DNA from: an uncultured Bacilli bacterium
GTDB lineage: Bacteria; Bacillota_I; Bacilli_A; RF39; UBA660
DNA length: 64,000 bases
Assembly (NCBI GenBank): GCA_944332205.1
Contig: CALVJN010000001.1
Span: forward strand, 1-64,000
Reading direction: 5' to 3'
Under the pieces are notes generated by a model that was not told the DNA's origin, did not search any database, and was given only the letters and a program-made list of their open reading frames with translations. A program made the translations under genes and the position numbers. Shown here in pieces: positions 27,446 through 46,183 of this stretch (positions are counted from its first letter, which is position 1; each line of letters opens with the position of its first letter).

Positions 27446-29806
27446 TTAATCATCAAAAAAATCATCAAAAAACTTATCATCATCACTTAAATCTTCTAAT
27501 TTTAAAGATGTAGCTAATTTATTAGAAGCTTTTTCTTTAACATCATCTGATTTTATTTCATCTTTAGATACATTAACAGGATTTGTCTTATCAACATTTT
27601 TTATAACACTTATCTGGTCATTTTTCATGGTATTAATATTAGAAGATGTTAAATTTTCATTTGCGTTAATTTTATTAATATCATCAAACTCTTTATTTTT
27701 TAGTTTTTCATTTACTTTTCTTTCTATGTTGATTGATGAAAGATTTAAATCGTTTTTAGGTTTATAAACAATATCATTATCATCTAATAATTCGATGTTA
27801 TCATGTTTAAATTTACTAGTTGTTTCATTAACTTTATTATCATATATAGGTTTTTTAACAACATTAGTTGTCTCACTAATATGATTGTTACTTAAATTAT
27901 TAGAATTAGAATTTTTTGCAACGTTATTATCAACTTTTTCTTTTTTTTCAAAATTTATAAGTGCTTGTTGAACTTTTTTCATTAATTCATTTTCATCAAA
28001 TTTTGATCCTAAACCAGCTTTATCTCTAGAAAAATTTGTTGAAGATGTTGCATCATTTCCTGACATATTAGACATCATTTCTTTTATCTTTTGATTTTTT
28101 TTCTCCTTAACAAAATCTCTTATATCAAAAATTTTAACAGGGCGTTTTTCACGAACTGGATAATCAATCTTTCCAGAAACACAATTTCCCCAATTAATTT
28201 TAAAATCTGGCACAAATGAAGTTTTAAAAGGATTTTTTCGCAAACGCAAAATTATTTGATCAAACTGTTTCATTCTTTGCAAATCACTAATAGTTACAAG
28301 AGGAGTTGAAGCTGTTTTATCATCTTTTTTAGATTTTTTTTCACCACATAGTTTACTTATTTCTTCAAGAGCGGCCAACTCAGTGGAAATAAGATAAATA
28401 ATATTACCACAATTTCCTTTAATCGTTTCAGCATCATCTTTTCCATATACTTTATTAAGTTGTGCAAAATTTTGAATTATCATTGTAAATCTAATCTGAC
28501 GCGAACGTGCAGCAGTTATCATTGTTGTAACATCTTTAAGAGGTGGCATATTAGCAAATTCATCAAGTAAAAAATTAGTTCTAACAGGAAGTTTACCACC
28601 ACTAACTTGAGCGACATCAATTAGAGTTTCATATATTTGTTTTATAAGTATTGTTGCTAAAGAATGGTATGTCTTTTTCTCATCTTGAATTATTATAAAA
28701 ACAGCTGTTGGCACTTTACCAATAGATTCAAGCTCAAAGTCACTATAACTAAGCATCTCTGAAAGATTTTCACGAGATGCAAAAAGTTTAACTTTTTGTT
28801 TGAATACTGATATTATCCCCCCCTTTGTTTCACTTGGCGCCATAACAGTACCACTAGCATTTACATATGCAGCACTACTAGGATCCTTGTAATTAAAATA
28901 TTCTTTTATATAAGTAGAACCGCCAAATTTATCTTCACCAACAGTTGCTGTCATATTAATACTATTAATATTAATCTTGTCTTCTTCAGTATCTTCAAAC
29001 ATAGCTAAAGCAATACCAGCGAAATAATCGGCAGCTGTTTTTTCCCAAAATGGATCACTATTAGCTGAATTTTCTTCATACAAAATATTAAGTGCTAAAT
29101 CATCTAATAGTTCTATTGCTTTATCCTGATTACCATTTTTATATAATTTGTATGGTAATGATAGTGGATTCCAAGCATTACCATTTTGTGGATTACGGAA
29201 ATTTAAAACAATTAAATTATATCCTTTCTTCTTTAATAAATCACCGGTTTTTTCATAAATTTCACCTTTTGGATCAGTACAAATAATAGATTCACCTTTT
29301 TTTGCTAAAATTTTTACACTAGGTAAAATTGTATTTACAGTTTTACCACTACCAGTAGCACCTATAACTAAATTGTGATACTCACCATTATCTACCCATA
29401 ATTCATGCCCATTACTTATTAATGGAATACCAGCATATTCAGAAGTAGAATCAGATGCTAAAACACGTTTTATATTATTATCATTTTTTATACTTTTAAC
29501 ACTAGACCAGTTACTATAACCATTAGAATTCTTTGAATTAAAACCAATTCCAAAGCCACTTTCCCATTCAAAAAAATACGAACTTACACTAAAAAACAAA
29601 CCACCTAGAGCTAATAAATAAAATACTAAAGTAAACACCAAATAATCCTCAGAAAAAGCCTTTAATGGATTTAAACCATAAAAAGTTCCTTGACTTGCTA
29701 ATTGTGGTAAATTAAGAACTCCTAAAGCAACTATATATAATAAAAATATAGCAAAGAAAATAAATATTAAAATATCTTTAGAAGTAGCAACAATACGAAA
29801 TTTCAT
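27446..29806 (-). CDS. virD4: VirD4/TraG-type T4SS coupling protein
   Basis: 786-residue coupling ATPase. Two N-terminal TM helices (about 11-30 and 55-76) are followed by Walker A GATGSGKT (149-156), then IICTDPKGEIYEKTG, the usual TraG/VirD4 motif, and Walker B NFLLDEFANMP near 403-413. RQIRFTMIIQNFAQL completes the core. It recruits substrates to a type IV secretion channel. The last about 200 residues form a low-complexity Asn/Lys/Asp-rich tail ending in acidic SDDDKFFDDFFDD, likely disordered and perhaps a docking element. It lies downstream of the VirB6-VirB3-VirB4-hydrolase set. No relaxase is in the window, so a protein rather than DNA substrate is plausible. Confidence 0.92.
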   Translation of the reverse strand: MKFRIVATSKDILIFIFFAIFLLYIVALGVLNLPQLASQGTFYGLNPLKAFSEDYLVFTLVFYLLALGGLFFSVSSYFFEWESGFGIGFNSKNSNGYSNWSSVKSIKNDNNIKRVLASDSTSEYAGIPLISNGHELWVDNGEYHNLVIGATGSGKTVNTILPSVKILAKKGESIICTDPKGEIYEKTGDLLKKKGYNLIVLNFRNPQNGNAWNPLSLPYKLYKNGNQDKAIELLDDLALNILYEENSANSDPFWEKTAADYFAGIALAMFEDTEEDKININSINMTATVGEDKFGGSTYIKEYFNYKDPSSAAYVNASGTVMAPSETKGGIISVFKQKVKLFASRENLSEMLSYSDFELESIGKVPTAVFIIIQDEKKTYHSLATILIKQIYETLIDVAQVSGGKLPVRTNFLLDEFANMPPLKDVTTMITAARSRQIRFTMIIQNFAQLNKVYGKDDAETIKGNCGNIIYLISTELAALEEISKLCGEKKSKKDDKTASTPLVTISDLQRMKQFDQIILRLRKNPFKTSFVPDFKINWGNCVSGKIDYPVREKRPVKIFDIRDFVKEKKNQKIKEMMSNMSGNDATSSTNFSRDKAGLGSKFDENELMKKVQQALINFEKKEKVDNNVAKNSNSNNLSNNHISETTNVVKKPIYDNKVNETTSKFKHDNIELLDDNDIVYKPKNDLNLSSINIERKVNEKLKNKEFDDINKINANENLTSSNINTMKNDQISVIKNVDKTNPVNVSKDEIKSDDVKEKASNKLATSLKLEDLSDDDKFFDDFFDD

Positions 29807-29874: not shown

Positions 29875-30612
29875 CTATATAACATTATTCTTTTTTTTCA
29901 TATTAACTAATTTAACAATAATAACTAACCCAATAATTAAAACTACTCCACAACATAATAATACAACATTCCAAGGTGTACTGCTCACAGTAGGTCTTAT
30001 TGATGTTGTATCTAAAACAATATACAAATTTTCAGATAGTATAGTATCTTTAGTTATAGTCCATTCGTATACACCATTACCCTTATCTTGAGCATTAGTT
30101 GCTATTGGATAAAAAATACTACTAACTGTTACATTAATTTCATCTAATTCATCGTAGCCATTAAAAAAATCTAAATCACTACTACCTGATATTGTTAAAT
30201 ATCTACCATCGTATGTTGATGAAAAGTTGGGTATTAAATCATTAGGTATTGTTGCATTAACATAATCATTAAATTTAAAAGAAGAAGATAATTTAAATCC
30301 AACATTTTCATCATCATTAATATATTCGGAATGATACACATCACAACTATTATTATCTGTAACTTGACAACTAGTATCCATATCACCATACATATTATAA
30401 TAATTTGTATAAATTTTATTAGAATTACCATATTCCATAGCATAATCATTAAAAGTCATTCCTAAATCGTCGCTTTTATTAGTTAACGTATCTTTGTTAG
30501 CAAAAACAAAAAATTCTTCATGTATAATACCATCTAAGACTTCAATTTTATAATTGGCTCTACAACCCGTAAAAAGAAATAGAAAAATAAATATTAAAAA
30601 CTTTTTTTTCAA
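29875..30612 (-). CDS. Lipoprotein with C-terminal TM, T4SS-locus accessory
   Basis: 245 residues. The start is TTG (30610-30612) with AGGAGG 6 nt upstream. A lipobox ends FTGC near residue 17. A beta-rich extracellular domain (about 20-205) is followed by a C-terminal TM (about 214-235) and a lysine-rich cytoplasmic tail, so both ends are membrane-tethered. Two cysteines in CQVTDNNSCDVYH may pair. No family recognised. It is 18 nt downstream of the SpoIID-NlpC/P60 gene, and its position suggests a periplasm-side scaffold of the secretion machine. Confidence 0.65.
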   Translation of the reverse strand: MKKKFLIFIFLFLFTGCRANYKIEVLDGIIHEEFFVFANKDTLTNKSDDLGMTFNDYAMEYGNSNKIYTNYYNMYGDMDTSCQVTDNNSCDVYHSEYINDDENVGFKLSSSFKFNDYVNATIPNDLIPNFSSTYDGRYLTISGSSDLDFFNGYDELDEINVTVSSIFYPIATNAQDKGNGVYEWTITKDTILSENLYIVLDTTSIRPTVSSTPWNVVLLCCGVVLIIGLVIIVKLVNMKKKNNVI

Positions 30613-30629: not shown

Positions 30630-33600
30630 CTACCAACTTAAATTATTTCTATTTTCAGAATTAGAGTAAAAATCATCTAACAAAAGTATTACATAATTAT
30701 GACTACCAGACTTTAATTCTTTATAACTAATAGCTCTACTTTTTCTACCATTTTCAGCAATCCAAATAGCAGAATCTTCTATTCCAACAATAACCATTAC
30801 ATGATTAGAACCACCATTAACATCAGAATAAAGAACATCACCAGGCTTTATAAGAGAAAAAACTCTATCTATGCTTACTGATGACAACTTAGTACTATCG
30901 TTATATAATCCCAAAAGTTGATTTCTATAGTCCTCGCTCAACTCTCCTATTGTTATACTAGGCTCGGTATAAAAACTAGAACCAGTAACAAATACTCTAA
31001 TAGCACCAGGGAAATAATTTTCATCTTTTCTATTGTTAACACCAGCCATTCCAGTAGCATAGGTCGACCCTTTATCGCATAAGTTCATTCCACCATTACA
31101 CATAGACCATCTAACAAAATTAGCACAATTAAGTCCCAATCTACATTTACTACCTTGACATCCAGTAGCACTTTCATGATATTCTCCCCATCTACTATTA
31201 ACACCTAACTTATTAGTTATATCCGAATTATATTCTGACCCAATCCAACCACCACGATGATCATATGGATAGGTATATCCTCCAGTCATTTCCATCGTAC
31301 ATTCCAATAATCCTATTGCTGCTTCAACTACACCTTCTCTTGTACCACTACCAGCAGCATTTACTCGTTGAGCAATACAACCATTTAAACAACCAATACT
31401 ATAACCATTTCTACTCAAAGCCTCTGTAAGTGGCTCATTAAGTGGATTACCACTAATTTTCTTTGTATAATTAGAATCAGTAATATCAAAACTAACTCCA
31501 CAAGAATCAACCGAAACAGAAGAACCTCCTTGTACAAACGATGCGTTTTGACATTCTCCATCCTCTAATGAAGAAGAAAGTCTTCTTATACTAACATCGT
31601 CATAAAAAAGTTTAATTAATGATTCCCAATCGTATTCAAAACCTTCAAAATACTTTAGGCCATATTGACTAGCTCCTCTTCCATGACCACCACTAGGTTT
31701 ATATGACCAACCATATTCTGTTTGTCCAAAAAAATTAGTTCTAGTATACCCCTTATAAGTCCAACAAGAAGCCAAAGTAGCTTGACTTGGATATCCTGCT
31801 GGGGAAGTTGGTGCAACAGTAGAGGATGTAGTAAATCTAACCTTATCACCATTAAATAAAGTATCAGCTGGACGACTATTATTATTTTGAAAACAAGGAC
31901 ATTCTAAATATCTATCAGAAATAGAAAAACTTTTACCTGTCTTATTAACATAAGCCTCAGGATTAATAGGTAAATTATTTTGACCATCAGGTAAATAATA
32001 GAAACCATTTTTTAAAGTATTTGCAACAGGACAAAAAGCATCATACTCTGTCATTAAAATAGAAGTTAGTCCATATTTTGTAACAACTAATCCTTTAGTT
32101 TGCTCTACTGCTTCAGCAATTTTTGGATGTTTATCTGGAGAATAACTTGAATTATAATTTTGATTATTAGAACTGTTTTCAATAACACCTGAACCATCTT
32201 TTCCAACTATGGATATAGCATAACTTCTAGCCAAAACTGCAAATGCCTTAAGTGATTCCAAATCACCACTACTATATTCTGCTAATAAAACCCCACCTAA
32301 ATACTGATCCTCAAAATTTACTTCTTGAACAGAACCACTATTTGGATCTCTAACTTTTATGGTTTCAATTGTACTTTCTAAAAGACCAAAACCATTACAA
32401 TCTTTTCTAATTGATTCATAATAAGAATAAATATAATTTGCTGTATCTAATATAGTAGAAAGATTTAACTCATAATTCTGATCATCCGTAAAATCAGAAT
32501 TTATACTTAAATAATCCTTCATATATATATGTATAAAGCCACCATTATTAACTAAGTTCCAAAAATAAACTCCTCCTGTATTAGGATCTTTAACGTATGT
32601 TCTTTCATGATTAGCATTTATACTAGTATAATAAATTCCCTGTTCTTTTGAAAGAACATACACAGTGGGAATAGAAGATTCACCAATAGGAACATCATTA
32701 ATACACTTTGCATTAGTCTCAGCTTCAGCAACATTTCTAAAGCCCTTAAACCAATTTACAGGGTTAAAAATTGCCCAAAAATTAAATTCATTTACTTCTA
32801 AATCATTCATAGCATATTGTTCCATTGTATCTTCTTCACCACAATCAACTTTAATATAAGAGCTAGGATTAACATATGTTAATATTTGTGCTTTTGCAAG
32901 ATATTCGGCTTGATCACCCCATAATGATAAGAATTCTTCCCAAGTATACGATTTCCCTTCCAAATAATAGCATTCCAACTCACCACACGAATTATCAGGA
33001 ATTGGAACAATATTACCATTTTCAATAGGAGCTATCAAAGTAGCAAGAATCAAAAATCTATCAATATCTACTTTATATTTATTACTAATTTTAGTAGATG
33101 CTTGTTCAATTTTTTGATATATTCCAGGATATTTTACAAAAATATTTGGATTTATCAAATCATTATCTGGAAACTCTTCCGTATCAATTGAACCATTATT
33201 TTCGTTACTATATATTTGTGAATCTGCATTTTTGAAAATAGCAATAATTATAATTATAAGAAACAATATAGATAAAAAACCAATACCAAAATGAAGAAAA
33301 AATTTAAACATTTTTTGCCGTGCTTTAATTGTTTGAGCAACTTTTATTAAACCTTTAGTACTTCCACCAGCTTCTATATATTTATCTAATAATTCGTCAC
33401 CTTTTTCAGTTTTAAGCATCTGATTTGCAATTTCACCTGTACCGGGAGAAACAGCATTTAATCCAGTACGAATTTCTCTTCGTGCTGAATCTTTTTTCTC
33501 TTGAAGTCTCATTTTTTCTAATGCAGCTCTAATTTTACTATCATTATTTTTTAATATACTATTTAGACTTCTAAATTTATTAAAATCATTATTCGATTTT

Positions 33601-33635
33601 TTTAAATTTTTAGAACTATTATTTCTTTTATCCAT
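30630..33635 (-). CDS. SpoIID - NlpC/P60 bifunctional wall hydrolase of the T4SS locus
   Basis: 1,001 residues. A basic cytoplasmic N-region (1-110) precedes one TM (about 111-134) and a large extracellular part. A SpoIID-like domain (about 440-690) has YLGGVLLAEYSSGDLESLKA, with Glu453 at the position of the catalytic glutamate of SpoIID, and GGHGRGASQYG (649-659). A C-terminal NlpC/P60-like domain (about 755-990) has the catalytic Cys in LNCANFVRW (Cys837) and His in GGSNHVMVIVG (His945). Gram-positive conjugation systems use a TM-anchored two-domain hydrolase (VirB1/CwlT type) to open the wall. Here the glycan-cleaving part appears to be SpoIID instead of a lysozyme or SLT domain. Many extra cysteines suggest disulfides. 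Confidence 0.85.
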   Translation of the reverse strand: MDKRNNSSKNLKKSNNDFNKFRSLNSILKNNDSKIRAALEKMRLQEKKDSARREIRTGLNAVSPGTGEIANQMLKTEKGDELLDKYIEAGGSTKGLIKVAQTIKARQKMFKFFLHFGIGFLSILFLIIIIIAIFKNADSQIYSNENNGSIDTEEFPDNDLINPNIFVKYPGIYQKIEQASTKISNKYKVDIDRFLILATLIAPIENGNIVPIPDNSCGELECYYLEGKSYTWEEFLSLWGDQAEYLAKAQILTYVNPSSYIKVDCGEEDTMEQYAMNDLEVNEFNFWAIFNPVNWFKGFRNVAEAETNAKCINDVPIGESSIPTVYVLSKEQGIYYTSINANHERTYVKDPNTGGVYFWNLVNNGGFIHIYMKDYLSINSDFTDDQNYELNLSTILDTANYIYSYYESIRKDCNGFGLLESTIETIKVRDPNSGSVQEVNFEDQYLGGVLLAEYSSGDLESLKAFAVLARSYAISIVGKDGSGVIENSSNNQNYNSSYSPDKHPKIAEAVEQTKGLVVTKYGLTSILMTEYDAFCPVANTLKNGFYYLPDGQNNLPINPEAYVNKTGKSFSISDRYLECPCFQNNNSRPADTLFNGDKVRFTTSSTVAPTSPAGYPSQATLASCWTYKGYTRTNFFGQTEYGWSYKPSGGHGRGASQYGLKYFEGFEYDWESLIKLFYDDVSIRRLSSSLEDGECQNASFVQGGSSVSVDSCGVSFDITDSNYTKKISGNPLNEPLTEALSRNGYSIGCLNGCIAQRVNAAGSGTREGVVEAAIGLLECTMEMTGGYTYPYDHRGGWIGSEYNSDITNKLGVNSRWGEYHESATGCQGSKCRLGLNCANFVRWSMCNGGMNLCDKGSTYATGMAGVNNRKDENYFPGAIRVFVTGSSFYTEPSITIGELSEDYRNQLLGLYNDSTKLSSVSIDRVFSLIKPGDVLYSDVNGGSNHVMVIVGIEDSAIWIAENGRKSRAISYKELKSGSHNYVILLLDDFYSNSENRNNLSW

Positions 33636-33699: not shown

Positions 33700-33735
33700 A
33701 TAAAAAATATAAATTAGTAAATTTATATTTTTTAT
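33700..33735 (-). terminator. AT-only hairpin at the end of virB4 (possible attenuator)
   Basis: A 16-bp perfect palindrome (33700-33715 with 33720-33735, loop AGTA) made only of A-T pairs overlaps the virB4 stop codon, with a T-rich arm on the minus strand. It may partly terminate before the wall-hydrolase gene. Without G-C pairs it would be weak. Confidence 0.4.
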
Positions 33736-35525
33736 AATCCACCTCCACTACCAAATGAAGACAATTCATCAGAAGAAACTATTATGTTTATTCGCATTCT
33801 TCTATTACCACAAACGAATAAGGCTTCACCCTGTGAATATTGTTTAATACTTTCCTTTTCATTATCATTAAGATCAATAAGTAAGCTTAAATCTTCAGTA
33901 GCTTGTTTTTTTAAACCCATAATTAAATAATAAGAGGCATTATCAAAAATTGCCTTTCCCTGCATTAAAACACCTGGCGCAGCAAAGTCACTTGGCTGTT
34001 GAGTAATTATAATAGAACCAGTATTATATTTTCTAGCTCGTCGTTGAACTTGAGCTAAAAAATCTGCACCTAAAGTATTATTATTTCCCAATAATACATG
34101 GGCTTCATCGACCATCAATATAGTATCAACAGTTTTATCAAGGCAAAGTCCCCATGCATATTTTAAAATATTAAAAAACAAAGCATTTTTAATATTTTCT
34201 TCTGCGTTCATAAGCTCTTTAATATTAAAAGTAATAAAATCACTCTCATGCGTTATAGTTGTATGACCATCAAAATAATATTTTAAATCTTTTGTAAGTG
34301 GTCTTATTTTTAATTCTAAACGTTCCATGATATCTCTTTCGTGAGTATGATCTGTCATTGACAATAATATTGCTTTTATAGTTTCATAAACATCAGAAAA
34401 TGTAGGATAATCAGCTGCAGTAAAACTATAAAAATCTTTATCGAAATCAATCCCAAATCTTCTATATGTATCCTGAACAATTTCACTAAATAAAGTTAAA
34501 ACATCTTCTTCTATTGATGGATCATAATATTTCATAAAAGCCTTTAAAAATTGAAGAGTTCTGGTTAATACAGTATAACCTAATCCTTGCTTTATTTCTT
34601 CTTCATCTGCATCAATTACTATTTGTAAAGGATTAATCATACCAAATTCTCCACCCTTACCTAAATCAATAGTATCGCCACCAAAAGTTTTAGTCATCTC
34701 TTCAAGTTCATTTTCCGGATCAATTGCAACTATTTGACAACCATTTCTAATATGATTTCTAAGTAAAAGTTTAGCTGCTGTAGATTTTCCACTTCCAGAA
34801 GTACCTAATAAAATAAGATTAGCATTATTTCTATTATTTTCTTTTTTTATCTTATACAAAAATTGATTAAATAAGATTACACCACCAGAAAAATCTACCC
34901 CTAATAAAGCAGAATATCCAGGATCTTTTACACTATCGAAAATAAAAGGATACATAGCAGCAATAGTTACAGAAGGTATAGGAGTACCAATTCGATCTTC
35001 AATATCTTGCTTTGGAAAAACCGGAATAATTGATTTTAAAACTTTTTCTTGTTCAAATCTAAGTGAAACTCCTTTCATCTCCATTGCATCCAAATAACTT
35101 TTCACATTAGTTTTTCTTAATTCTAACTCTTCTCTAGTATCTGCCGTTATCATAACATGCATCTGAAAATCAAATATTTTTGCTTGACTTCCTGCTAGCA
35201 TAGTAACAAAAGATTCCAAAGATTCATAATCCATTCTTATTCTCTCTTGCATAGTTCTGTCACGTTCTTCTTGATATTTTATCTTTAAATCTGCAATTTG
35301 TTTGTTAAGCATTTTAGAAACTATTGAAAATGGTAATGGTAAATGTTTAATAACTATTTTTATACCAGGCATACTAGTTAAATTAGATAGATAACCTGGT
35401 GAAATAAATTTAGGAAAAGATACCACCGTTAAAATCGTAGCATATTTATCACTAATAAAAAAATCACTTGGATAAAACTGCAATCCCTTTGGTGCAATTT
35501 GCGATTTAAAATTTAATGAGCTCAT
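33732..35525 (-). CDS. virB4: VirB4-type T4SS ATPase (C-terminal/ATPase part)
   Basis: 597 residues. Walker A GTSGSGKST is at 241-249, the following ATP-site region is IVAIDPENELEEM, and Walker B is ILMVDEAHVLLGN near 465-477. The C-terminal GSIIITQQPSDF is typical of VirB4/TraC. The start aligns with the segment that follows the N-terminal domain of the about 800-residue VirB4 proteins in Bacillota elements (SDFFISDKYATILTVVSFP). The missing N-domain is encoded by the preceding gene, with an ATGA stop/start overlap. It energises assembly of the secretion channel at the membrane. Confidence 0.9.
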   Translation of the reverse strand: MSSLNFKSQIAPKGLQFYPSDFFISDKYATILTVVSFPKFISPGYLSNLTSMPGIKIVIKHLPLPFSIVSKMLNKQIADLKIKYQEERDRTMQERIRMDYESLESFVTMLAGSQAKIFDFQMHVMITADTREELELRKTNVKSYLDAMEMKGVSLRFEQEKVLKSIIPVFPKQDIEDRIGTPIPSVTIAAMYPFIFDSVKDPGYSALLGVDFSGGVILFNQFLYKIKKENNRNNANLILLGTSGSGKSTAAKLLLRNHIRNGCQIVAIDPENELEEMTKTFGGDTIDLGKGGEFGMINPLQIVIDADEEEIKQGLGYTVLTRTLQFLKAFMKYYDPSIEEDVLTLFSEIVQDTYRRFGIDFDKDFYSFTAADYPTFSDVYETIKAILLSMTDHTHERDIMERLELKIRPLTKDLKYYFDGHTTITHESDFITFNIKELMNAEENIKNALFFNILKYAWGLCLDKTVDTILMVDEAHVLLGNNNTLGADFLAQVQRRARKYNTGSIIITQQPSDFAAPGVLMQGKAIFDNASYYLIMGLKKQATEDLSLLIDLNDNEKESIKQYSQGEALFVCGNRRMRINIIVSSDELSSFGSGGGL

Positions 35526-36076
35526 TCTGTAGTCACCACCGTTCCAAATTCAGTTGTTTTACCACCATTTAAGAAATTATCGAGAATTATTCTCAAATCT
35601 TCATTAGATGTCTGTTTAGCAGAAAGACCAGCTGATGCTAACATATTAATCAACATACGTATTCTTTTTTGAATTTTATCCATATCTTTCTCTTTAAACA
35701 AAATGTAATATTCGGTATCAACAACATTATTATTAATAAAAGAATTACCTTTTTGTATATCCTCAGCAATAAGTTTTCTAATTGCCGGAGAATTCTCTTG
35801 ATTATATAAAAGCTGCAATTGTGACATATACACTGATATATCAACTGGCCTATCAGCAACAACCAACCAAAATTCAAAATCCATTTGATTATACATATTC
35901 TTTAAATTTGATAAAACAGATTGTTGTGACTCATAATCTAATATAAAAATATTTCTAGGAGAAATTTTTACACCAGTTACTTTCTCCTGCGAATTTAAAA
36001 CAATCATTCCACTTGATATTGATTGTATCGGTACCCAATCTTCTGTATACTTACTTCTTATTTGTGTCTTTGTCAT
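35522..36076 (-). CDS. Split VirB4 N-terminal-domain protein
   Basis: 184 residues from ATG 36076, with a weak GGTG site upstream. It starts inside the end of the virB3-like gene. The pattern ISSGMIVLNSQEKVTGVKISPRNIFILDYESQQSVLSNLKNMYNQMDF is split here as SSGMIVLNSQ, GVKISPRN and ILDYESQQSVLSNL. It corresponds to the N-terminal beta-rich domain of full-length VirB4/TraC ATPases. It has no ATPase motifs. It ends in an ATGA overlap with the ATPase gene in another frame. Summed length with that gene (about 780) equals a normal VirB4, so this looks like gene fission, or less likely a frameshift. Confidence 0.72.
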   Translation of the reverse strand: MTKTQIRSKYTEDWVPIQSISSGMIVLNSQEKVTGVKISPRNIFILDYESQQSVLSNLKNMYNQMDFEFWLVVADRPVDISVYMSQLQLLYNQENSPAIRKLIAEDIQKGNSFINNNVVDTEYYILFKEKDMDKIQKRIRMLINMLASAGLSAKQTSNEDLRIILDNFLNGGKTTEFGTVVTTE

Positions 36077-36383
36077 ATTTAACACACCAACCTCTCCATA
36101 CATATCTTTGCCTATTAACAAAATAGAAATTATAAATTGCACCAATTAGTACCAAAACATTATGTTGATATGGTATTGGTAAAACTAAAAATAAGGCAAT
36201 TAAAACAGGAAGTAACAAACAAATAGCAATCAATGTATTATCCATATAATCTTGAAAGATAAGAAGTAAAATTAATGAGATTGATAATCCCACTAAAAAA
36301 ATCACTAAATCAACAGGTCTAAAATATCCCAAAATAAGCCTTCCCCTATTGGCGTTTGCTGGTATCAAATAATTACCATTCAC
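36051..36383 (-). CDS. virB3: VirB3/PrgI-family inner-membrane protein
   Basis: 110 residues with a GTG start (36381-36383). The N-terminal YLIPANANRGRLILGYFRPVD leads into two close TM segments (about 30-47 and 50-72), followed by HNVLVLIGAIYNFYFVNRQRYVWRGW. This is the layout of PrgI/TcpE-like VirB3 proteins of Gram-positive T4SS. VirB3 anchors VirB4 at the membrane, in keeping with its place directly before the two VirB4 genes. It overlaps the next gene by 26 nt. Confidence 0.8.
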   Translation of the reverse strand: MNGNYLIPANANRGRLILGYFRPVDLVIFLVGLSISLILLLIFQDYMDNTLIAICLLLPVLIALFLVLPIPYQHNVLVLIGAIYNFYFVNRQRYVWRGWCVKYDKDTNKK

Positions 36384-36401: not shown

Positions 36402-38333
36402 CTAATGATTATTATTATCATTATTTTTAAAGAAATTATGTTTCAAATAATCTCTACGTTCATTATTTTCATTCATTATATTTTCAGAATCATTTATTGC
36501 AGTACCTCCTACAACATTATTATCATTATCTCTTTCCACAGCACCATATGTAAATCCACTTTCATTCTTGTAAATTTGTTGTAATTTTCTTTCATTGGCA
36601 TTTTCTCTTCCTCTATTAACATACTCTACTGAACGATCAACCAACTTAGCACCATATCCAACTACAGGGATTTTATCTTCCACAAAATTAACAACTTTTC
36701 TAGTAGCTCTATGAAAATTTTTCCTTCTTACTTCAGCTTGTTTAGTTTCGCCTAGTCCAAAACTCTCAGCCACTTTAGACATCGTTTCATAATCTTTTTT
36801 AGCTTTTGATGCTACATCCTGAGCAGAGATATAAGAAGAACGAAGATTTTCTATAACACTATCATCTGCACCTTTTTGAACAGCTTCTTCATAAGCCATT
36901 CTAGCCATTTGTTCAGCGGATTCAGTACTCATCATATAATTCTTTGCTCTTTTTAATGTACCATTATCACCGCCAGTAATTCCAAATTTTCTAGCTGATA
37001 TAATTCCTTGCCTTTTAACAGCAGCTTTTTGTAAACTAGCACCCAATCCTCCAGTATAATTTTTATCACCTGTTCTTATTTTTCCAGCAGTATCACGTCC
37101 AGCAGCCCATGCTCCTTGTTTTGGATCTGCTGTAGCACCTGCAGCAGCACCAGTCAACATACCGCTCAAACCATGTCCGCCAACTAAACCTCCCAAGGCT
37201 CCAACAGCTGCACCCAATCCTGTACCAAGTCCAGCACCACTATCTTTAATTCCAAGAGCATCTTTTATAAATTTTGGTGCTTCTCTAGCAAAGAAAATTA
37301 GTCCGATAATTAAAATAACTATTAAATAACTTCCTCTAAGAGGATCTTCAGCAAAACTAGGGAAATTTTTAAACAAGCCATTGCTTATAATAAGCTGAAT
37401 TAACATTATCACTACATATAAAATTCCCAGCTTTAAGAATATATCTAAAAAAGTTGTAATAAGAGCCTTAAGCCAATGGGAAAAAGCTCCATCTTTGCTT
37501 GATTTAGGGTCAATTAATGACATAATAGGTATCGGAGCAATTGCTTCTAATATTATCATTTTAAATATCCTCTTAGCTACATCAATAGTAATACCTAATA
37601 GCATTAATACCATAAGAATACCGACAATAGTAGATACAATAAAAGTATAAGTATATTTATAATATCGAGTGGCACCAATATCAATTGGTCCCAAATTAAC
37701 ATTGATACCTACATTACATGTCAAATTAATATTACTTAAGAATTCGCTTAAAGAAGTAATGCTAGGAGTATCAGCATAAGTTCCCTGCCCACAAACTGAA
37801 TCTAAATCCATAGAAGGTGCAAAAAAAGCCTGTAATGAAGAAATAGCCATCATATTAGCAGCAGAAGAAATATCATCAGTATTATTACCATTACTAACTG
37901 AAACACCACTATCTTCATTAATTCCCAATAAAATTCTAGGTAGCATAGGTAAAAAAGCATTTTGTGCTCTTTGAATTAATCCATCGCCATTATCTACACT
38001 AAACAAAATATTCGGAACACTAACTAAAACTAGCAACATAATAATGGCTCGTGATATAAGCTTAGAAACACCTTTCTCACTTTTTCCTGACATTGATTCT
38101 GGATCAACAATATATTGAAAGAAAGAAAAAGAAAGTTTAAAAGCCATAAAAATTCCAAGTATAACATATATACGAGAATAAATTCCGTTCATAAGTCCAG
38201 AAGAAGTTGTTAACCTAGACAAATCAAATATACCAAATAGAATTATCTTAACCATCGAATAAACAATCCAGTCAATCCAAGCAAAAATAGTTCTTAATAT
38301 ATCCATTATCCAACTAGCAGATTGTAATCCCAT
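36402..38333 (-). CDS. virB6: VirB6/TrbL-like polytopic T4SS protein
   Basis: 643 residues. The N-terminal half has about six TM segments (about 12-32, 50-72, 90-108, 228-255, 285-315, 330-350). Then comes a glycine/alanine-rich stretch (GLGTGLGAAVGALGGLVGGH and on, about 368-400), a hallmark of VirB6/TrbL. The C-terminal half is basic, helical and cytoplasmic. It forms the channel core in the membrane. GGAG lies 8 nt before the ATG. It is the first gene of the VirB6-VirB3-VirB4 cluster and has its own promoter after a 0.5-kb gap. No VirB8 was recognised nearby. Confidence 0.82.
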   Translation of the reverse strand: MGLQSASWIMDILRTIFAWIDWIVYSMVKIILFGIFDLSRLTTSSGLMNGIYSRIYVILGIFMAFKLSFSFFQYIVDPESMSGKSEKGVSKLISRAIIMLLVLVSVPNILFSVDNGDGLIQRAQNAFLPMLPRILLGINEDSGVSVSNGNNTDDISSAANMMAISSLQAFFAPSMDLDSVCGQGTYADTPSITSLSEFLSNINLTCNVGINVNLGPIDIGATRYYKYTYTFIVSTIVGILMVLMLLGITIDVAKRIFKMIILEAIAPIPIMSLIDPKSSKDGAFSHWLKALITTFLDIFLKLGILYVVIMLIQLIISNGLFKNFPSFAEDPLRGSYLIVILIIGLIFFAREAPKFIKDALGIKDSGAGLGTGLGAAVGALGGLVGGHGLSGMLTGAAAGATADPKQGAWAAGRDTAGKIRTGDKNYTGGLGASLQKAAVKRQGIISARKFGITGGDNGTLKRAKNYMMSTESAEQMARMAYEEAVQKGADDSVIENLRSSYISAQDVASKAKKDYETMSKVAESFGLGETKQAEVRRKNFHRATRKVVNFVEDKIPVVGYGAKLVDRSVEYVNRGRENANERKLQQIYKNESGFTYGAVERDNDNNVVGGTAINDSENIMNENNERRDYLKHNFFKNNDNNNH

Positions 38334-40119: not shown

Positions 40120-40446
40120 CTAATATTGATTCCAACAAGCAGACCAACTTGATGAATTAGCACCATCAGAATCTGTCTCACCTTTAGCAACAAGCCCCAT
40201 AACTACATCAACAATAGTAACAGCAAAGAAAACTGCAACTGCGGCAATACAACGCTTAATAAGTTTACTAGTAGCGGCTTTAATTTCTTTGTCATCACTA
40301 GCCATAACAGCTTTACCTAGATCTATAGCACCCATAATTATTAAAAGTATAGGTACACCTATCTTAATTATATTAAAAACTCCTTTAACAACTGCTACAA
40401 CAGGTCCTAATCCTTCGCATGCATCCAATATTTGAAACATTTCCAT
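40120..40446 (-). CDS. VirB2-like two-TM small protein (T4SS pilin candidate)
   Basis: 108 residues. An N-terminal amphipathic segment is followed by two TM helices (about 22-45 and 68-92) with a basic cytoplasmic loop KLIKRC between, and a short polar tail. This is the form of VirB2/TrbC-like pilins and of small proteins preceding VirB6 in Bacillota T4SS. No long signal peptide is seen, as in Gram-positive relatives. GGAGGAG precedes the ATG. It has a near-consensus promoter and a terminator of its own, which would allow high expression expected of a major subunit. It lies between tadZ and the pilin-like gene. Confidence 0.7.
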   Translation of the reverse strand: MEMFQILDACEGLGPVVAVVKGVFNIIKIGVPILLIIMGAIDLGKAVMASDDKEIKAATSKLIKRCIAAVAVFFAVTIVDVVMGLVAKGETDSDGANSSSWSACWNQY

Positions 40447-40518: not shown

Positions 40519-41460
40519 CTAAATATTCTTAATTAATCCTAGTTTTAAAAGCAATTTATCAATATGTTCAGATGCCTCACGATCATTAATCGAAGGTAAC
40601 ACAAAAAATAAATTTATATTAGCCTCTTCTGAAAATTCTTTAAGGTCATCATCATTAAGTACAGAACGATTAACAATGACTTTTTTATTTTTCAATTTTG
40701 AAAAAACAGTCCTATCTCTAGTCATCAATTTATTAAGCTTAATAACAGATGGTTCAATTAAATAAATTATTTCATCACAAATATTTTCATCATAATCATT
40801 TAAATCAACAAAAATATAATTGAAATTTTTAGCTTTTAACAATTCAGTAGCAATAGAACTTTTATCAGTAGAAATCATATTTTTTTCACGAAAAAAGCTA
40901 AAATCTCGTTTATTTACTTCAATAGCCAACACTGATAAATTATACTTTTCTTCAAGCTGTTTTTTCATCATATAAATTAGCGAAGATGCACCAGCACCAT
41001 CCGTAACATTTTTCACTCCTAAAATTCTTAAATTAGATACAAAATCATTATTATTTGTATTAGGTACAATGCTACTTTGAGCTATTTGATGTAAATGAGC
41101 AACATCTTTATAAGTATTAGGAGTATTAAGTAAATATTGAATGCCTTCAGCATTAGTTGTAAAATTGTAATACCCCATAGAAATTAGCTTGGATAAAAAG
41201 AAATTATTAGCCATTGAAGAATCTGGAGGTATAAGCAAAATAATTTTATCAATAGGAAGGCCTATCGACAATTTTTGATATGTAACTACATCATCAGAAT
41301 TTTCTAATGCAGTAACATCGATAATCATCCTCGCAAAAAAGAAATTAGTAAAACTACTAATTAGTTCATCGGCACTAAATACTCCTCGCAATGTTTTAAT
41401 TATTTCAACGTTTAAAGATGAAATAATGCTTTCTTGATTATTAACAACTAATACATTCAT
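40519..41460 (-). CDS. tadZ: TadZ/CpaE-like protein with a degenerate P-loop
   Basis: 313 residues. A receiver-like N-terminal half (about 1-125) is followed by a MinD/ParA-like half. The deviant Walker A position reads NVTDGAGASSL (151-161), with alanine where the catalytic or signature lysine is expected, so ATP hydrolysis is unlikely. Later strands FNYIFVDLND and KKVIVNRSVLND match the switch and nucleotide-base regions of the fold. TadZ proteins position Tad pilus machines at the pole. It fits its place after the pilus genes. Identity to any one TadZ is low. Confidence 0.68.
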   Translation of the reverse strand: MNVLVVNNQESIISSLNVEIIKTLRGVFSADELISSFTNFFFARMIIDVTALENSDDVVTYQKLSIGLPIDKIILLIPPDSSMANNFFLSKLISMGYYNFTTNAEGIQYLLNTPNTYKDVAHLHQIAQSSIVPNTNNNDFVSNLRILGVKNVTDGAGASSLIYMMKKQLEEKYNLSVLAIEVNKRDFSFFREKNMISTDKSSIATELLKAKNFNYIFVDLNDYDENICDEIIYLIEPSVIKLNKLMTRDRTVFSKLKNKKVIVNRSVLNDDDLKEFSEEANINLFFVLPSINDREASEHIDKLLLKLGLIKNI

Positions 41461-41461
41461 A

Positions 41462-41905
41462 CTAATCTACCCTCGTCAATTCAGATTCACTAACTCCTCT
41501 ACCATAACAATTACCTTCAGAGTCTAAATTACTAAACCATTCATCTGATTTAATAAAAACTCCTGTTTCTATCAATCTTGTTTCACCTTTTATTCTAACA
41601 TCAACAGATGCACTCAACACTGAAAATGTTGCATATAATTTTACATAATAATAACCGCCCCTATTTTCAGCAGGATATCTACAAATAACATACTTTCCAT
41701 TTGAAGGATAACCTAAATTAACAAGTGCATTTTCAAAGGTTTCTTGATTATATACTCCTTCTCCTTGTTCAAGATAATTAATAAGTGAGTTTTTAATCTT
41801 ATAAACCCTAGCATATTGAATAACTGCAGCCAAAAAAGCAATAAATATGCTCATAAAAAACAATACAATCCAAAATAACATTGTTCCACCAATAGACTCA
41901 CGCAT
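41462..41905 (-). CDS. TadE/TadF-like pseudopilin
   Basis: 147 residues. A short N-terminus MRESIGGTM is followed by one long hydrophobic helix (about 9-32), which continues to a helix carrying IKNSLINYLEQ. A beta-rich C-terminal domain includes ATFSVLSASVDVRIKGETRLIETG. The N-terminal RGG-like sequence (ESIGGT) sits where TadE prepilins are cleaved, but a canonical site is not clear. It lies between the Flp-like pilin and tadZ, the usual place for TadE. It is a structural minor pilin of the Tad system. Confidence 0.68.
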   Translation of the reverse strand: MRESIGGTMLFWIVLFFMSIFIAFLAAVIQYARVYKIKNSLINYLEQGEGVYNQETFENALVNLGYPSNGKYVICRYPAENRGGYYYVKLYATFSVLSASVDVRIKGETRLIETGVFIKSDEWFSNLDSEGNCYGRGVSESELTRVD

Positions 41906-41927
41906 TAATTATCACACTCCACATAAC

Positions 41928-42098
41928 TTATGGTGTTACAGTACCATTAACATCTACATTTTGATCAGTACTGTCATCCCATTTATCACTAATACCACTT
42001 AGTATATTTGGTAAAAACATTGTAACAAAAGTTAATACAGCAGCAATAGCAATAATAGTAACTAATGTCATATTTAACTCTCCTGTTGCTTCTTTCAT
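41928..42098 (-). CDS. Flp-like (type IVb) major pilin, 56 residues
   Basis: Short gene from ATG 42098 to TAA 41928, with GAAAGGAGAG about 9 nt upstream. It starts MKEATGELNMTL, then a continuous hydrophobic helix (about 10-32), then a polar tail ISDKWDDSTDQN and on to TVTP. Size, position between tadC and tadE, and the helix that starts right after a glycine (Gly6) all fit Flp pilins or the Flp1-like family. The classical Glu at +5 after cleavage is missing, so processing may differ. No prepilin peptidase is in the window. This is probably the most abundant subunit of the appendage. Confidence 0.78.
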   Translation of the reverse strand: MKEATGELNMTLVTIIAIAAVLTFVTMFLPNILSGISDKWDDSTDQNVDVNGTVTP

Positions 42099-42160
42099 TT
42101 ATAAATCTCTCCTTTCTAGTATAGTATTATTATAAACTTTTTTTAAATTAATATCAATAA

Positions 42161-42949
42161 TTACATTCCAAAAAGCATTAGCATTGACAATAATAATATT
42201 ACCATTGTTCCTCCACCAGTAACTACTAACATAACCATTGTCTTTCTTTCCATAGTGTCAAGACGATTTTTATACTTTACTTCACGTGCCTTATTTTGTA
42301 AAGAAGATACAGATTTAGAAAATATTAATAATTGTTTGTATTTATTCTCTTGAGCACCAAGCCCTAATCTATAAAGTAATCTCATCATTCGCATAGAATC
42401 TCTTACAGGATAAGTAGTAGCAAAATCCATATATGGTTGAATACTAGAGTCTCCTGCATCAATTTTAGCTATCATTTGTCTAAGTCCAGGTTTAAACACA
42501 TCAGGAGCTGACTCTATAGACCTAGCAATTGCAACTGGAACAGTATAATTTTGACATAATATTTCTAAATTTTTTAAATAGTATGGAAGCATCAAGTCAA
42601 TTTGATGCATATATTTTTTATAATAACCTTTTAACGATATATAAGGCATTTTAAAAATCATTACCCCAATTAATAAAACTAATACAACGTTAATAAAACT
42701 TAAATTTGAAATCATCAATGCAAAAAATAGCAAAGTACCATAGAAAGCATTTTTTATTCTTGATACAAGAAGTTTATTTGGACTAACGGATTCACCATAC
42801 TTAGCCGCAACATAAAAATCATAATCTTTTTCTTTTAAAAATAATAAATAACCATTTTCTTCATCTAAAAATTTCTTAGTACTAACAGTTCCAGAATATA
42901 ACAACGGAATGGCAACTAAAATAGCAATAATAAATACTTCAATAAACAT
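42161..42949 (-). CDS. tadC: TadC-like pilus assembly membrane protein
   Basis: 262 residues of the T2SSF/GspF family. Membrane segments near 1-17, 70-100 and 238-260 flank a cytoplasmic helical domain with LMLPYYLKNLEILCQNYTVP and LLYRLGLGAQENKYKQLL. It pairs with TadB to form the membrane platform that CpaF drives. It lies immediately after tadB (2 nt) and before the Flp-like gene, the conserved order in Tad loci. Confidence 0.8.
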   Translation of the reverse strand: MFIEVFIIAILVAIPLLYSGTVSTKKFLDEENGYLLFLKEKDYDFYVAAKYGESVSPNKLLVSRIKNAFYGTLLFFALMISNLSFINVVLVLLIGVMIFKMPYISLKGYYKKYMHQIDLMLPYYLKNLEILCQNYTVPVAIARSIESAPDVFKPGLRQMIAKIDAGDSSIQPYMDFATTYPVRDSMRMMRLLYRLGLGAQENKYKQLLIFSKSVSSLQNKAREVKYKNRLDTMERKTMVMLVVTGGGTMVILLLSMLMLFGM

Positions 42950-42951
42950 AA

Positions 42952-43851
42952 TTATTCAGCCCCCACATTTTCATTATAATATTTTTCACCATTAAGTAAA
43001 AAGTAACTATTAAATATAACTATAGCATGTAAAGCAAAATTTACTAACGAATTTTCCAAAAGATCTAAATAGGTATCAATACCCAAAAGGTATTGAACAA
43101 GCATTACCATCAGATATAATAAAATACCATATTGTACAAACTGTTTATGGAAATTTTGTCTATCGATTCTATCACGATAAACACCTTCTACCAATACATC
43201 TATATCCAAAAGCATATTCTCCAATACTTCATTAGAATCTTTTGCACCCTCTTTAGTTATTTGTAAGAATAATTGATGCATATTCTTAGTCATATGGAAA
43301 TCATATTTTTCATTCATAAATTTAATTGATTCAGAAATATCACCATTTCTATAAGCCATATCAATCATTTCTTTTACATCATCTAAAACTGGTGATTGTA
43401 AAACACCAGAATTATACACACCTTCAAGTGCTTTAACAAAATTTTGAGTTGTTTGAAATTCCATAATAGTATTTGTAGTATAAACTTGAATTTGCTCAAA
43501 TATAAATTCACTATAAATTCTTTTACAACGTAAATATGTAAGATATGGTATAACACAAATAACAATTATCATGTAAAATATAGATATTGCAATATTATAA
43601 AAATATAAATAAGATATTCCTAAAGCAGCACTAGCAAATGTTACAACTTGAACAATATATTGTTTTGGTGAATATTCAAGTCCCATTTCTTTAACTTTAG
43701 TACGAATAACTTTAAACGAAAAAGGAGCATACTTATCATAAATATTAGATGATGTTTCAATAACAAATTTATACATAGAATCGCCAGTTTTAAAATAATA
43801 AAGCAAACCAAAAATAGCGACAGCCAGTACGAAGAAAATTTCAATATACAT
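42952..43851 (-). CDS. tadB: TadB-like pilus assembly membrane protein
   Basis: 299 residues from ATG 43851 (AAGGTG upstream; an in-frame TTG at 43872 is less likely). T2SSF-type protein with TM segments near 1-20, 75-115 and 250-290 and a cytoplasmic helical domain carrying FEQIQVYTTNTIMEFQTTQN and ALEGVYNSGVL. It is the platform partner of TadC, directly downstream of the CpaF ATPase gene. Confidence 0.8.
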   Translation of the reverse strand: MYIEIFFVLAVAIFGLLYYFKTGDSMYKFVIETSSNIYDKYAPFSFKVIRTKVKEMGLEYSPKQYIVQVVTFASAALGISYLYFYNIAISIFYMIIVICVIPYLTYLRCKRIYSEFIFEQIQVYTTNTIMEFQTTQNFVKALEGVYNSGVLQSPVLDDVKEMIDMAYRNGDISESIKFMNEKYDFHMTKNMHQLFLQITKEGAKDSNEVLENMLLDIDVLVEGVYRDRIDRQNFHKQFVQYGILLYLMVMLVQYLLGIDTYLDLLENSLVNFALHAIVIFNSYFLLNGEKYYNENVGAE

Positions 43852-43923
43852 AGTACACCTTCTTTCTATCAATTAAAACTTGTTATAAACATTTTAGAAT
43901 TCAATGACAATTAATCATAAAGT

Positions 43924-45234
43924 TTACGCAGAAGATAAATTAACGTTAGAAGAAACGTTCAAATTTTCAATATTTCGTGTATTATTTGCTTGAGTATTAG
44001 CACCAAATAAACAAGAAATATCAACTCCTTGCCCTTCCAAATATGACTTTAAATACTTTGATGGTTCATTATAAGTTTCCTCCCCTGTGACAGTCTTTAA
44101 ATATATATTATTAAATTCTGGTTTATTATCATCAGTAACATAAAATTCAGTAACACCAGCAATCTCACGCACAAATCTTTTTTCAATTGGGCTATATCTT
44201 CCTCTAACAAAAATTCCTAATTGAATATAGCGATAAATAGTCTTTAAAAACTGATCAACCTCTATGTTAGATTCGAGTAAGCTATACATACGATGCGGAA
44301 TACTTTCTGCTTTATCAGCATGTATTGTTGATAAAATATTATGTCCAGAAGAAATAGAATTACGAACAGCTGTAACTGCCTCTGCACTACGTACCTCAGA
44401 TAATAAAATCCATTTAGGATTTTGTCGCATACAAGTAACTAACACATCAGAATAACTTGCAATATTATTGGTCTTCATAGCAACTATATCACGAGTAGGA
44501 AAAATTCTATCTAAATGTAGTTCAAGAGTATCTTCAATAGTAATAATTTTTTCATTTTCAGCAGTATGACTTGCCAAATATTTAACAAGCTCAGTTTTAC
44601 CACTACCAGTTTCACCACATACTATTATATTACAATGTCCCTTAACACAATTAATTAAAAATTCATGGATACTTAAAGTAACATATTTTTCAGATAACAA
44701 CTTATTCTTTTCAAGCCTTATTTTAGCAGGTGTCTTACGAAAAACAGCAGCAATACCATTTCTTGCTATCGAATCGTGCACAAAATTCATACGTAATTCG
44801 GCACTTTCTGAATCCAAAAAAGGATGTGCCATATTAAAAGTCTTACCCATAATATTAGAGCACTGAAAAGCTATTTTTTCTATTAAAGCATTATTAACAT
44901 CTTGCTGATCTGCCCTAAATACTCCTTTATCTAATGACTTCAACCAAAGCTGTCCACCATTACTATAAGAAATATCTGTAATATTATCATCATCTAAATA
45001 TTTCTTTAATGGTCCAAATTCAATACTAGAAAAATTATCGGCATCTTTTTCATAATTACTTTTTTTTGTAATAGTTGAATTTTCAAAGTCATTATTGACA
45101 AAATTATTATTTACCAACTGATCATTATGATTAGTATCCATAATATTGGTAGCAGAAGTATTATTTTCTGCTACCATATTATTATTTGAAACCTCGTTAA
45201 AGCCAATATTGCCAAAATTCATTGACTCATTCAT
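43924..45234 (-). CDS. cpaF: CpaF/TadA-type secretion ATPase
   Basis: 436 residues. An Asn-rich N-terminal tail (1-70) precedes an N-domain and a RecA core. Walker A CGETGSGKTE is at 206-215, TIEDTLELHL gives the Asp box, ILLSEVRSAEAVTAV lies near 276-290, and ISSGHNILSTIHAD is the His box. It powers extension and possibly retraction of the Tad pilus; relatives are also VirB11-like. It is the only PulE/VirB11-superfamily ATPase in the window, so it could serve both the pilus and the secretion parts. An AACGAGGTG site precedes the ATG. Confidence 0.92.
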   Translation of the reverse strand: MNESMNFGNIGFNEVSNNNMVAENNTSATNIMDTNHNDQLVNNNFVNNDFENSTITKKSNYEKDADNFSSIEFGPLKKYLDDDNITDISYSNGGQLWLKSLDKGVFRADQQDVNNALIEKIAFQCSNIMGKTFNMAHPFLDSESAELRMNFVHDSIARNGIAAVFRKTPAKIRLEKNKLLSEKYVTLSIHEFLINCVKGHCNIIVCGETGSGKTELVKYLASHTAENEKIITIEDTLELHLDRIFPTRDIVAMKTNNIASYSDVLVTCMRQNPKWILLSEVRSAEAVTAVRNSISSGHNILSTIHADKAESIPHRMYSLLESNIEVDQFLKTIYRYIQLGIFVRGRYSPIEKRFVREIAGVTEFYVTDDNKPEFNNIYLKTVTGEETYNEPSKYLKSYLEGQGVDISCLFGANTQANNTRNIENLNVSSNVNLSSA

Positions 45235-45246
45235 ATAAACACCTCG

Positions 45247-46125
45247 TTATTCTGTATTCTGCGAATTATTATCACTATTTATACTACTATTAATATCAAC
45301 ATTTGGAACATCTTCAGGTACGGTTGCAGCCATATTTAATATGTAATCTTGCAAATACTGACTAGTAACATTGGATGTTATTTGTTCATCAGAGTTTTCA
45401 AAGTTAGCAGTAGTTGGAACTGGTATTATATCAATCCTTGAAAATCCTGAATTTCCTGAATAAATAGAATAATTATTAATAGCATTAATCTTCCTTAATA
45501 ATAAATGTTGCTCTTCTGGTAATGAAAAAATTATAACATATGGGATTCTAGTTTCATCAGAGTTTTCAAAAACATTTTTCCCATCTGAAGTTTTTACAGC
45601 TAGAATTTTAACATCTTTTAATAATTTTCCAACCAACGCTTTCCCATTTTCTTTTGTAGAAATATATATATCAATATAATTTCCAGGCAATATTGAATTA
45701 GTATAACTAGTAAGCATATTAACAGTTAAATAAAAAAGTGTTTCACCTTCTGGTACATCATATAAGGAAGAGTCTGGTAAATCTTCTTTTGTCGTAACAG
45801 ATTCCCTATAAAATAAACTTCCTGCTGGAATAACAGTATTAACATTAGAATACTTTCCAATAATTGCAGATGTACTATCATAATAACTACCTTTTAATGC
45901 CTCTTTTGGAACTTTAATAACAGTTATCATGTCTGCTGTTATTTCCGTTTTAGGCTGTATAGTAACTTTAGCAATAGGTATATTAACAGGCTTTGTTGCA
46001 CTATTAACACGCCATGTATACCCAACTAATAAAACTACTACAATTAAAATTGCGCATAATGCTGTAACAGTGTTTTTACTTTTAAAAAATCTCTTAAATT
46101 TTGAGGTATTTAAATTACTATCCAT
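45247..46125 (-). CDS. cpaB: CpaB-like SAF-domain pilus assembly protein
   Basis: 292 residues from ATG 46125 (GGAG 9 nt upstream; in-frame ATGs at 46134 and 46158 lack a site). One N-terminal TM (about 22-41) is followed by a SAF domain (about 50-120: VNIPIAKVTIQPKTEITADM, PAGSLFYRES) and a RcpC/CpaB-type C-terminal domain (LPGNYIDIYISTKENG). CpaB binds wall or forms the periplasmic collar of Tad pili. It is the first gene of the Tad operon with its own promoter. Confidence 0.8.
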   Translation of the reverse strand: MDSNLNTSKFKRFFKSKNTVTALCAILIVVVLLVGYTWRVNSATKPVNIPIAKVTIQPKTEITADMITVIKVPKEALKGSYYDSTSAIIGKYSNVNTVIPAGSLFYRESVTTKEDLPDSSLYDVPEGETLFYLTVNMLTSYTNSILPGNYIDIYISTKENGKALVGKLLKDVKILAVKTSDGKNVFENSDETRIPYVIIFSLPEEQHLLLRKINAINNYSIYSGNSGFSRIDIIPVPTTANFENSDEQITSNVTSQYLQDYILNMAATVPEDVPNVDINSSINSDNNSQNTE

Positions 46126-46183
46126 AAAAATCATCTCCCATAAAATATTCCAATTCAAATATCACACTATCTACTTTAAAATA

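Follow-up and report, generated by a model that had tools for sequence, protein, structure and literature searches.

The Gram-positive T4SSs known so far mostly carry lysozyme-type hydrolases. A hydrolase of the VirB1 type is required by these machines, and CwlT is known in the role of T4SS wall hydrolase (PMC11753425); in CdCwlT, a glycan-cutting module comes first and an NlpC/P60 module second (PMC12542765). The window analysed here, a stretch of 64,000 nucleotides from an uncultured Bacilli bacterium (GTDB lineage Bacteria; Bacillota_I; Bacilli_A; RF39; UBA660; contig CALVJN010000001.1), holds a gene between VirB4 and lipoprotein/VirD4 genes whose product carries a SpoIID-like module. The question is what such a protein does in a T4SS locus, and whether it could open the wall for the machine.

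Organisation of the hydrolase

The hydrolase is encoded on the minus strand from an ATG start (Table 1). A plus-strand reading of 30630–33635 was rejected, as stops occur throughout. The preliminary description had placed the ORF exactly, and all of its residue numbers are exact as well (Glu453, GGHGRGASQYG at 649–659, Cys837 and His945); to its position, the minus strand has to be added. The segment before the transmembrane helix carries six K/R and no D/E, and that after it one K/R and seven D/E. These positive-inside charges predict an N-in/C-out topology, and the predicted arrangement of one membrane helix, positive-inside charges and outward catalytic domains is that of a VirB1/CwlT-like enzyme. 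Residues 150–400 gave no database match. Comparison with the nearest relative, the ortholog of congener G009 (81% identity), yielded a dN/dS of ∼0.15, indicating purifying selection on the hydrolase. A phmmer search of the PDB with the single protein matched nothing, and profiles were therefore required for PDB matching.

The SpoIID module

The first module matches Pfam PF08486 over residues 434–519 (44.5 bits against a cut-off of 23; 2.5e-11). A SpoIID profile searched against the PDB retrieved Bacillus anthracis SpoIID (4rwr, 1.4e-67) and the Clostridium difficile structures 5i1t and 5txu (∼1e-57). In an AlphaFold2 model of residues 150–700, the SpoIID core exceeds a pLDDT of 90 over ∼100 residues; the best seven PDB matches of the SpoIID region are all SpoIID or SleC (E from 1.5e-8 to 8.9e-3), and the next has an E value of 1.4. 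Full-length TM-scores are low because the model is multidomain and the placement of its domains uncertain. The claim of a SpoIID-like first module thus holds by Pfam, PDB profile and predicted fold, the last of which matches solved SpoIID structures as had been proposed as a check. The protein scores 30.4 bits on the NCBIfam SpoIID equivalog TIGR02870, below the cut-off of 234.75. A viral fold library gave no match.

Glu453 aligns with Glu101 of C. difficile SpoIID, which is the Glu of a VVxxEM motif in that chain (counted on the alignment) and is essential by mutagenesis (PMC6221140). It is invariant in all 46 aligned SpoIID-family sequences, drawn from many phyla. The window protein keeps both SpoIID motifs, the Glu at the catalytic position and HGxGxSQ. 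SpoIID had been described as otherwise known from engulfment, which is too narrow: SleC (9h68), a lytic transglycosylase of germination, has the same fold, and SpoIID domains are present in many non-sporulating groups.

The NlpC/P60 module

The C-terminal module of the window protein alone scores 15.5 on PF00877, below the cut-off of 23; two orthologs (L013 and L020) exceed it with 24.0 and 30.5, and NLPC_P60 matches 11 of 14 related C-termini (best 4.7e-8). A profile built from the 14 sequences matched CwlO (8wt3) at 1.8e-4, and the next matches were mostly other NlpC/P60-type enzymes. Cys837 and His945, already named in the preliminary description, are aligned in the CwlO match, and this Cys and His are invariant in 14/14 sequences. 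The AlphaFold2 model of the C-terminal module, built from four sequences, has a pLDDT of 68 and showed weak similarity to papain-like folds, with no match at E<0.001. The NlpC/P60 assignment of this module, including the profile match to CwlO, therefore rests on sequence.

The T4SS locus

The T4SS genes form one block with housekeeping genes on both sides (holA, tRNA synthetases and tex). In the direction of transcription, the block runs from CpaB/RcpC through the CpaF/VirB11-type ATPase, two TadB/TadC-like proteins, a TadE-like and a CpaE-like protein to the T4SS pilin-like protein, and continues with the VirB6-like protein, the small membrane protein, the split VirB4, the hydrolase, the lipoprotein and VirD4. 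The CpaE-like, TadE-like, TadC-like and TadB-like proteins were named by inspection only. The window VirB4 is nearest to the Mbov_0397 family of mycoplasma ICEs, yet below the cut-off of that family. The small membrane protein has no Pfam match, and nothing resembling VirB8 was recognised. A gene beside the Tad-like block encodes a 968-aa protein (47626–50532, minus strand) that has a prokaryotic N-methylation (pseudopilin-like) start and carries cysteine-rich, receptor-like and List_Bact repeat domains.

Table 1. Coordinates in the window of the hydrolase, its parts and the surrounding T4SS genes.
Feature	Position	Strand	Evidence
Bimodular wall hydrolase (SpoIID + NlpC/P60), 1001 aa	30630..33635	-	Pfam, fold and profile matches
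Single transmembrane helix, residues ~109-133	33237..33311	-	hydropathy
N-terminal region, predicted extracytoplasmic, residues 150-400, partly helical	32436..33188	-	AlphaFold2 model
SpoIID domain, residues ~420-690	31566..32378	-	Pfam; fold match 5i1t E=1.5e-8; profile vs PDB
Glu453	32277..32279	-	aligned with catalytic Glu of SpoIID (C. difficile Glu101)
GGHGRGASQYG, second SpoIID motif, residues 649-659	31659..31691	-	alignment
NlpC/P60-type cysteine peptidase module, residues ~726-1001	30633..31460	-	conservation, profile, Pfam
Cys837, predicted nucleophile	31125..31127	-	LNCANFVRW, cf. CwlO DCSSFVRW
His945, predicted catalytic His	30801..30803	-	conservation, CwlO alignment
Glu961, near-invariant, candidate third catalytic residue	30753..30755	-	conservation
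Lipoprotein, lipobox LFTGC, downstream partner family A	29875..30612	-	lipobox, partner family
VirD4 coupling ATPase	27446..29806	-	Pfam T4SS-DNA_transf 3.4e-58; NCBIfam conju_CD1115 291 bits, above cut-off
VirB4 ATPase part (split VirB4)	33732..35525	-	profile matches, orthologs
VirB4 N-terminal part, separate gene	35522..36145	-	CagE_TrbE_VirB E=0.0016, below cut-off; 114/115 loci
Small membrane protein, putatively VirB3/PrgI-like by size and position	36051..36383	-	113/115 loci
VirB6-like polytopic membrane protein	36402..38333	-	pLS20_p028 family 3.7e-8, below cut-off; 106/115 loci
T4SS pilin-like protein	40120..40446	-	PF18895 E=9e-4, below cut-off; 94/115 loci
Tad-like block: CpaE-like, TadE-like, TadC-like, TadB-like, CpaF/VirB11-type ATPase, CpaB/RcpC	40519..46158	-	mixed
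CpaF/VirB11-type ATPase	43924-45234	-	T2SSE 1.5e-26; VirB11 1.6e-31, below cut-off
CpaB/RcpC	45247-46158	-	SAF/RcpC match

A chromosomal core system

Most described Gram-positive T4SSs reside on mobile elements (PMC11753425), and the preliminary description had set this locus beside conjugative ones. For a family-wide chromosomal system with no relaxase among the window proteins scanned, a conjugative role is at most putative. A VirB4 ortholog, likewise split (E<=1e-40), is present in 123 of 145 genomes of the family (122/144 genera), three of these matches (G028, G116 and G127) being partial or only of a longer fused kind. At E<=1e-150, VirB4 was found in 34 of 38 family members and was absent from all 258 class genomes outside the family. 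Presence in 123 of the 145 family genomes and in none of the 258 class members outside indicates a chromosomal core system rather than a mobile element. The longer fused VirB4s (26–40% identity) are otherwise extra and sporadic. Both the N-terminal and the ATPase gene of the split VirB4 (35522–36145 and 33732–35525) are retained family-wide. Among loci with enough flank, roughly one half to two thirds have Tad-like genes upstream, on the strand of the locus itself.

The pattern of a conjugative element, with a relaxase at the locus and a patchy distribution, was not found. No relaxase was detected among the window proteins scanned, a subset of the ORFs. In the host genome, where relaxases and sporulation genes were checked family by family, PF03432 is absent and a Mob_Pre on a different contig is broken. 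A tblastn search against plasmids and phages gave no match, so that nothing there points to an origin from a mobile element; in viral contigs, two SpoIID matches were obtained, both weak and neither accompanied by VirB4 or VirD4 in the sequence examined.

Wall-lytic modules in the VirB4–VirD4 slot

The interval between VirB4 and VirD4 was surveyed in ∼115 loci. The SpoIID and NlpC/P60 fusion recurs there in other species and genera, so that its absence elsewhere, named in the preliminary description as a refuting outcome, was not borne out. Several modules are interchangeable at this position, and SpoIID is the most frequent of them. A Pfam scan of 97 slot proteins gave SpoIID in 41, M23 in 33, CHAP in 12, C39_2 in 12, NLPC_P60 in 11, Phage_lysozyme2 in 6 and glucosaminidase in 5, with single cases of GH25, Amidase_3 and others. 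With local profiles, a recognised wall-lytic domain was found in 85 of the 90 genera with a complete interval: SpoIID in 44, M23 without SpoIID in 32 and a cysteine peptidase only in 9, the other 5 having none of these. Where SpoIID is present (44 genera), its partner module is C39 in 24, M23 in 6, M15 in 1 and NlpC in 5 plus the window's own genus, and none was recognised in 8. Three genomes of the window's genus (G001, G004 and G008) have no NlpC module. In congener G003 (L009 3560–4432), the SpoIID and NlpC parts lie in two overlapping frames owing to a frameshift in the linker, either biological or from the assembly.

Parsimony on the VirB4 tree requires 19 changes of the SpoIID label, at least 9 of them forced by well-supported branches. 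A tree of the SpoIID domain accommodates the 50 slot SpoIIDs with only 2 changes, where shuffles require 38, and separates them from canonical SpoIIDs of the same family, so that the slot SpoIIDs form essentially one lineage. The SpoIID+C39 type, which has no HGxGxSQ motif and keeps the Glu, falls mainly in one clade (98) of the SpoIID tree and has a scattered distribution over the VirB4 tree, with 14 changes. The exact counts are soft because the trees were made with FastTree only and the SpoIID branches are long. The simplest account is that SpoIID entered the slot once and was later lost, replaced and exchanged between T4SS loci.

A probable wall-opening component

Taken together, we consider it likely that the hydrolase is the VirB1/CwlT-like component that opens the peptidoglycan for a chromosomal T4SS and is encoded by an exchangeable cassette. 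The one membrane helix would anchor the protein, with both catalytic modules outside. The SpoIID module would act as a lytic transglycosylase and cut the glycan via Glu453, and the NlpC/P60 module may cut the stem peptides; both cuts would create a local gap in the wall, through which the machine could be assembled. The occupant of the slot, a hydrolase with its downstream partner, has been exchanged repeatedly among relatives. The constant position between VirB4 and VirD4, the wall-lytic domain in 85 of 90 complete intervals and the single helix of nearly all main slot proteins speak for a wall opener. Several observations count against a wall opener, namely the weak C-terminal model, the motif-less slot SpoIIDs, the losses of the Glu and of NlpC modules in congeners and the lack of an identified VirB8-like protein.

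The combination of modules poses a difficulty of its own. NlpC/P60 enzymes (D,L-endopeptidases) do not denude glycan. The SpoIID of C. difficile acts only on denuded glycan, which is made by the amidase SpoIIP (PMC6221140). The pairing of the two modules is therefore biochemically not obvious. Either the slot SpoIID branch has relaxed this requirement or an amidase partner exists.

Alternative functions

Xanthomonas-type killing T4SSs offer a comparison in which an effector goes with an immunity partner. The slot protein might accordingly be a wall-attacking effector delivered to neighbouring cells, with the downstream lipoprotein or membrane protein as its immunity partner. Variable lytic modules within one slot would fit, as would partner genes that switch with the hydrolase. 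Partner B, a downstream membrane protein, accompanies SpoIID+C39 in 22 of 24 genera and other slots in 4 of 66 (Fisher 7e-15), and about six independent pairs on the VirB4 tree go in the same direction with none opposite. Family B is the last ORF before VirD4 (L104, L102, L131 and others). Partner family A, however, occurs with a dozen module combinations, unlike a specific immunity protein. Moreover, 88 of the 90 main slot proteins contain a single membrane helix, and the helix lies in the first 45% of the protein in 89; most genomes have one hydrolase slot per locus, and no arrays of immunity genes were seen. We regard an effector as rather doubtful and keep it as a rival because one type co-switches with its partner, yet partner family A is common to many types. 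The slot may, in a related reading, be a polymorphic site for antagonism cassettes, at which the T4SS delivers or displays an exchangeable wall cutter, the co-switching downstream gene protects, and SpoIID is an inter-bacterial weapon domain; this we consider unlikely.

A further alternative is that the SpoIID domain is a scaffold or glycan-binding part without catalytic activity and only the second module cuts. HGxGxSQ is missing in 34 of 47 slot SpoIIDs, and the Glu is lost in congener G004. Against this, the Glu is kept in 44 of the 47, and the window protein has both motifs and evolves with the low dN/dS given above. The motif-less types could have a non-catalytic SpoIID; the window protein is a weaker candidate, and for it we judge this reading distinctly unlikely.

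Least of all do we favour the idea that the hydrolase is the host's engulfment SpoIID housed in a T4SS locus, an improbable reading since canonical and slot SpoIIDs coexist in many other genera, the slot holds M23 instead in the 32 genera noted above, and the association of VirB4 with SpoIIP is weak (Fisher p 0.05; 0.46 without the smallest VirB4-lacking genomes). What speaks for engulfment is gene content: the host genome (G000) has gpr-spoIIP (L209 142–2169), the window encodes a SigG-like sporulation sigma factor (54216–54992, minus strand) that scores 355.8 bits and narrowly misses the equivalog cut-off of 372, and the searched congeners that bear the T4SS (among G000–G011; L210, L228) yielded no canonical SpoIID. 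The only congener with a canonical SpoIID is G002, which is without this VirB4 and slot SpoIID. Although its genome measures 1.25 Mb, the host has the gene content of an endospore former, as judged by the SigG-like gene and gpr-spoIIP. A second SpoIID protein, with three PG_binding_1 repeats and similarity to SleB, is encoded just downstream of a LysM-like ORF (L002 1402–2763) and is present in nearly all congeners.

Comparison with known systems

With the wall-opening component as the preferred reading, this family of uncultured small-genome Bacilli, which keeps a T4SS as a core trait, would use a lytic transglycosylase fold of the sporulation type for wall opening, an enzyme exchanged repeatedly for M23, lysozyme, glucosaminidase, CHAP, NlpC or C39 modules. 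What the T4SS needs, some wall cutter with a one-helix anchor, would then be separable from which bond is cut, and the slot would offer naturally occurring module swaps with which to test the requirement for a wall cutter. The enzymology is also checkable, in particular the need of the slot SpoIID branch for denuded glycan.

The hydrolase resembles SpoIID of C. difficile and B. anthracis (5i1t, 5txu and 4rwr) in fold and catalytic Glu. It differs from canonical SpoIID in being fused to NlpC/P60, in its T4SS locus and in its separate branch of the SpoIID tree. SpoIID enzymes fused to Amidase_2 or PG_binding_1 likewise place this domain within a multidomain wall enzyme. Among 24 non-T4SS SpoIID proteins scanned, however, Amidase_2 was fused to SpoIID in three and NlpC, CHAP, C39 or M23 in none. 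SpoIID-like domains are also known, under a different Pfam code, from polyvalent proteins of phages and conjugative elements (PMC5512222); these are large multidomain proteins of mobile elements, whereas the window hydrolase is a fixed gene of a T4SS operon. The VirB4 and VirD4 belong to sequence families shared with the Mycoplasma ICE (Mbov_0397 VirB4) and CD1110/CD1115 conjugation systems. Unlike in Mbov_0397 and CD1110/CD1115, the window VirB4 is split in two genes, family-wide and in single copy.

The open-licence papers searched contained no SpoIID-containing hydrolase of a T4SS or conjugation system, which does not prove novelty. The closest counterpart is CwlT of ICEBs1/Tn916-type elements, a bimodular Gram-positive T4SS wall hydrolase in which lysozyme and NlpC/P60 modules follow the same order. 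The window protein differs in a glycan module of another fold, SpoIID in place of lysozyme/SLT, and in a long N-terminal part with one membrane helix, and its locus is a chromosomal core unlike the CwlT elements. What appears new is that a different fold would take the role of CwlT, in a core T4SS whose hydrolase cassettes are exchangeable.
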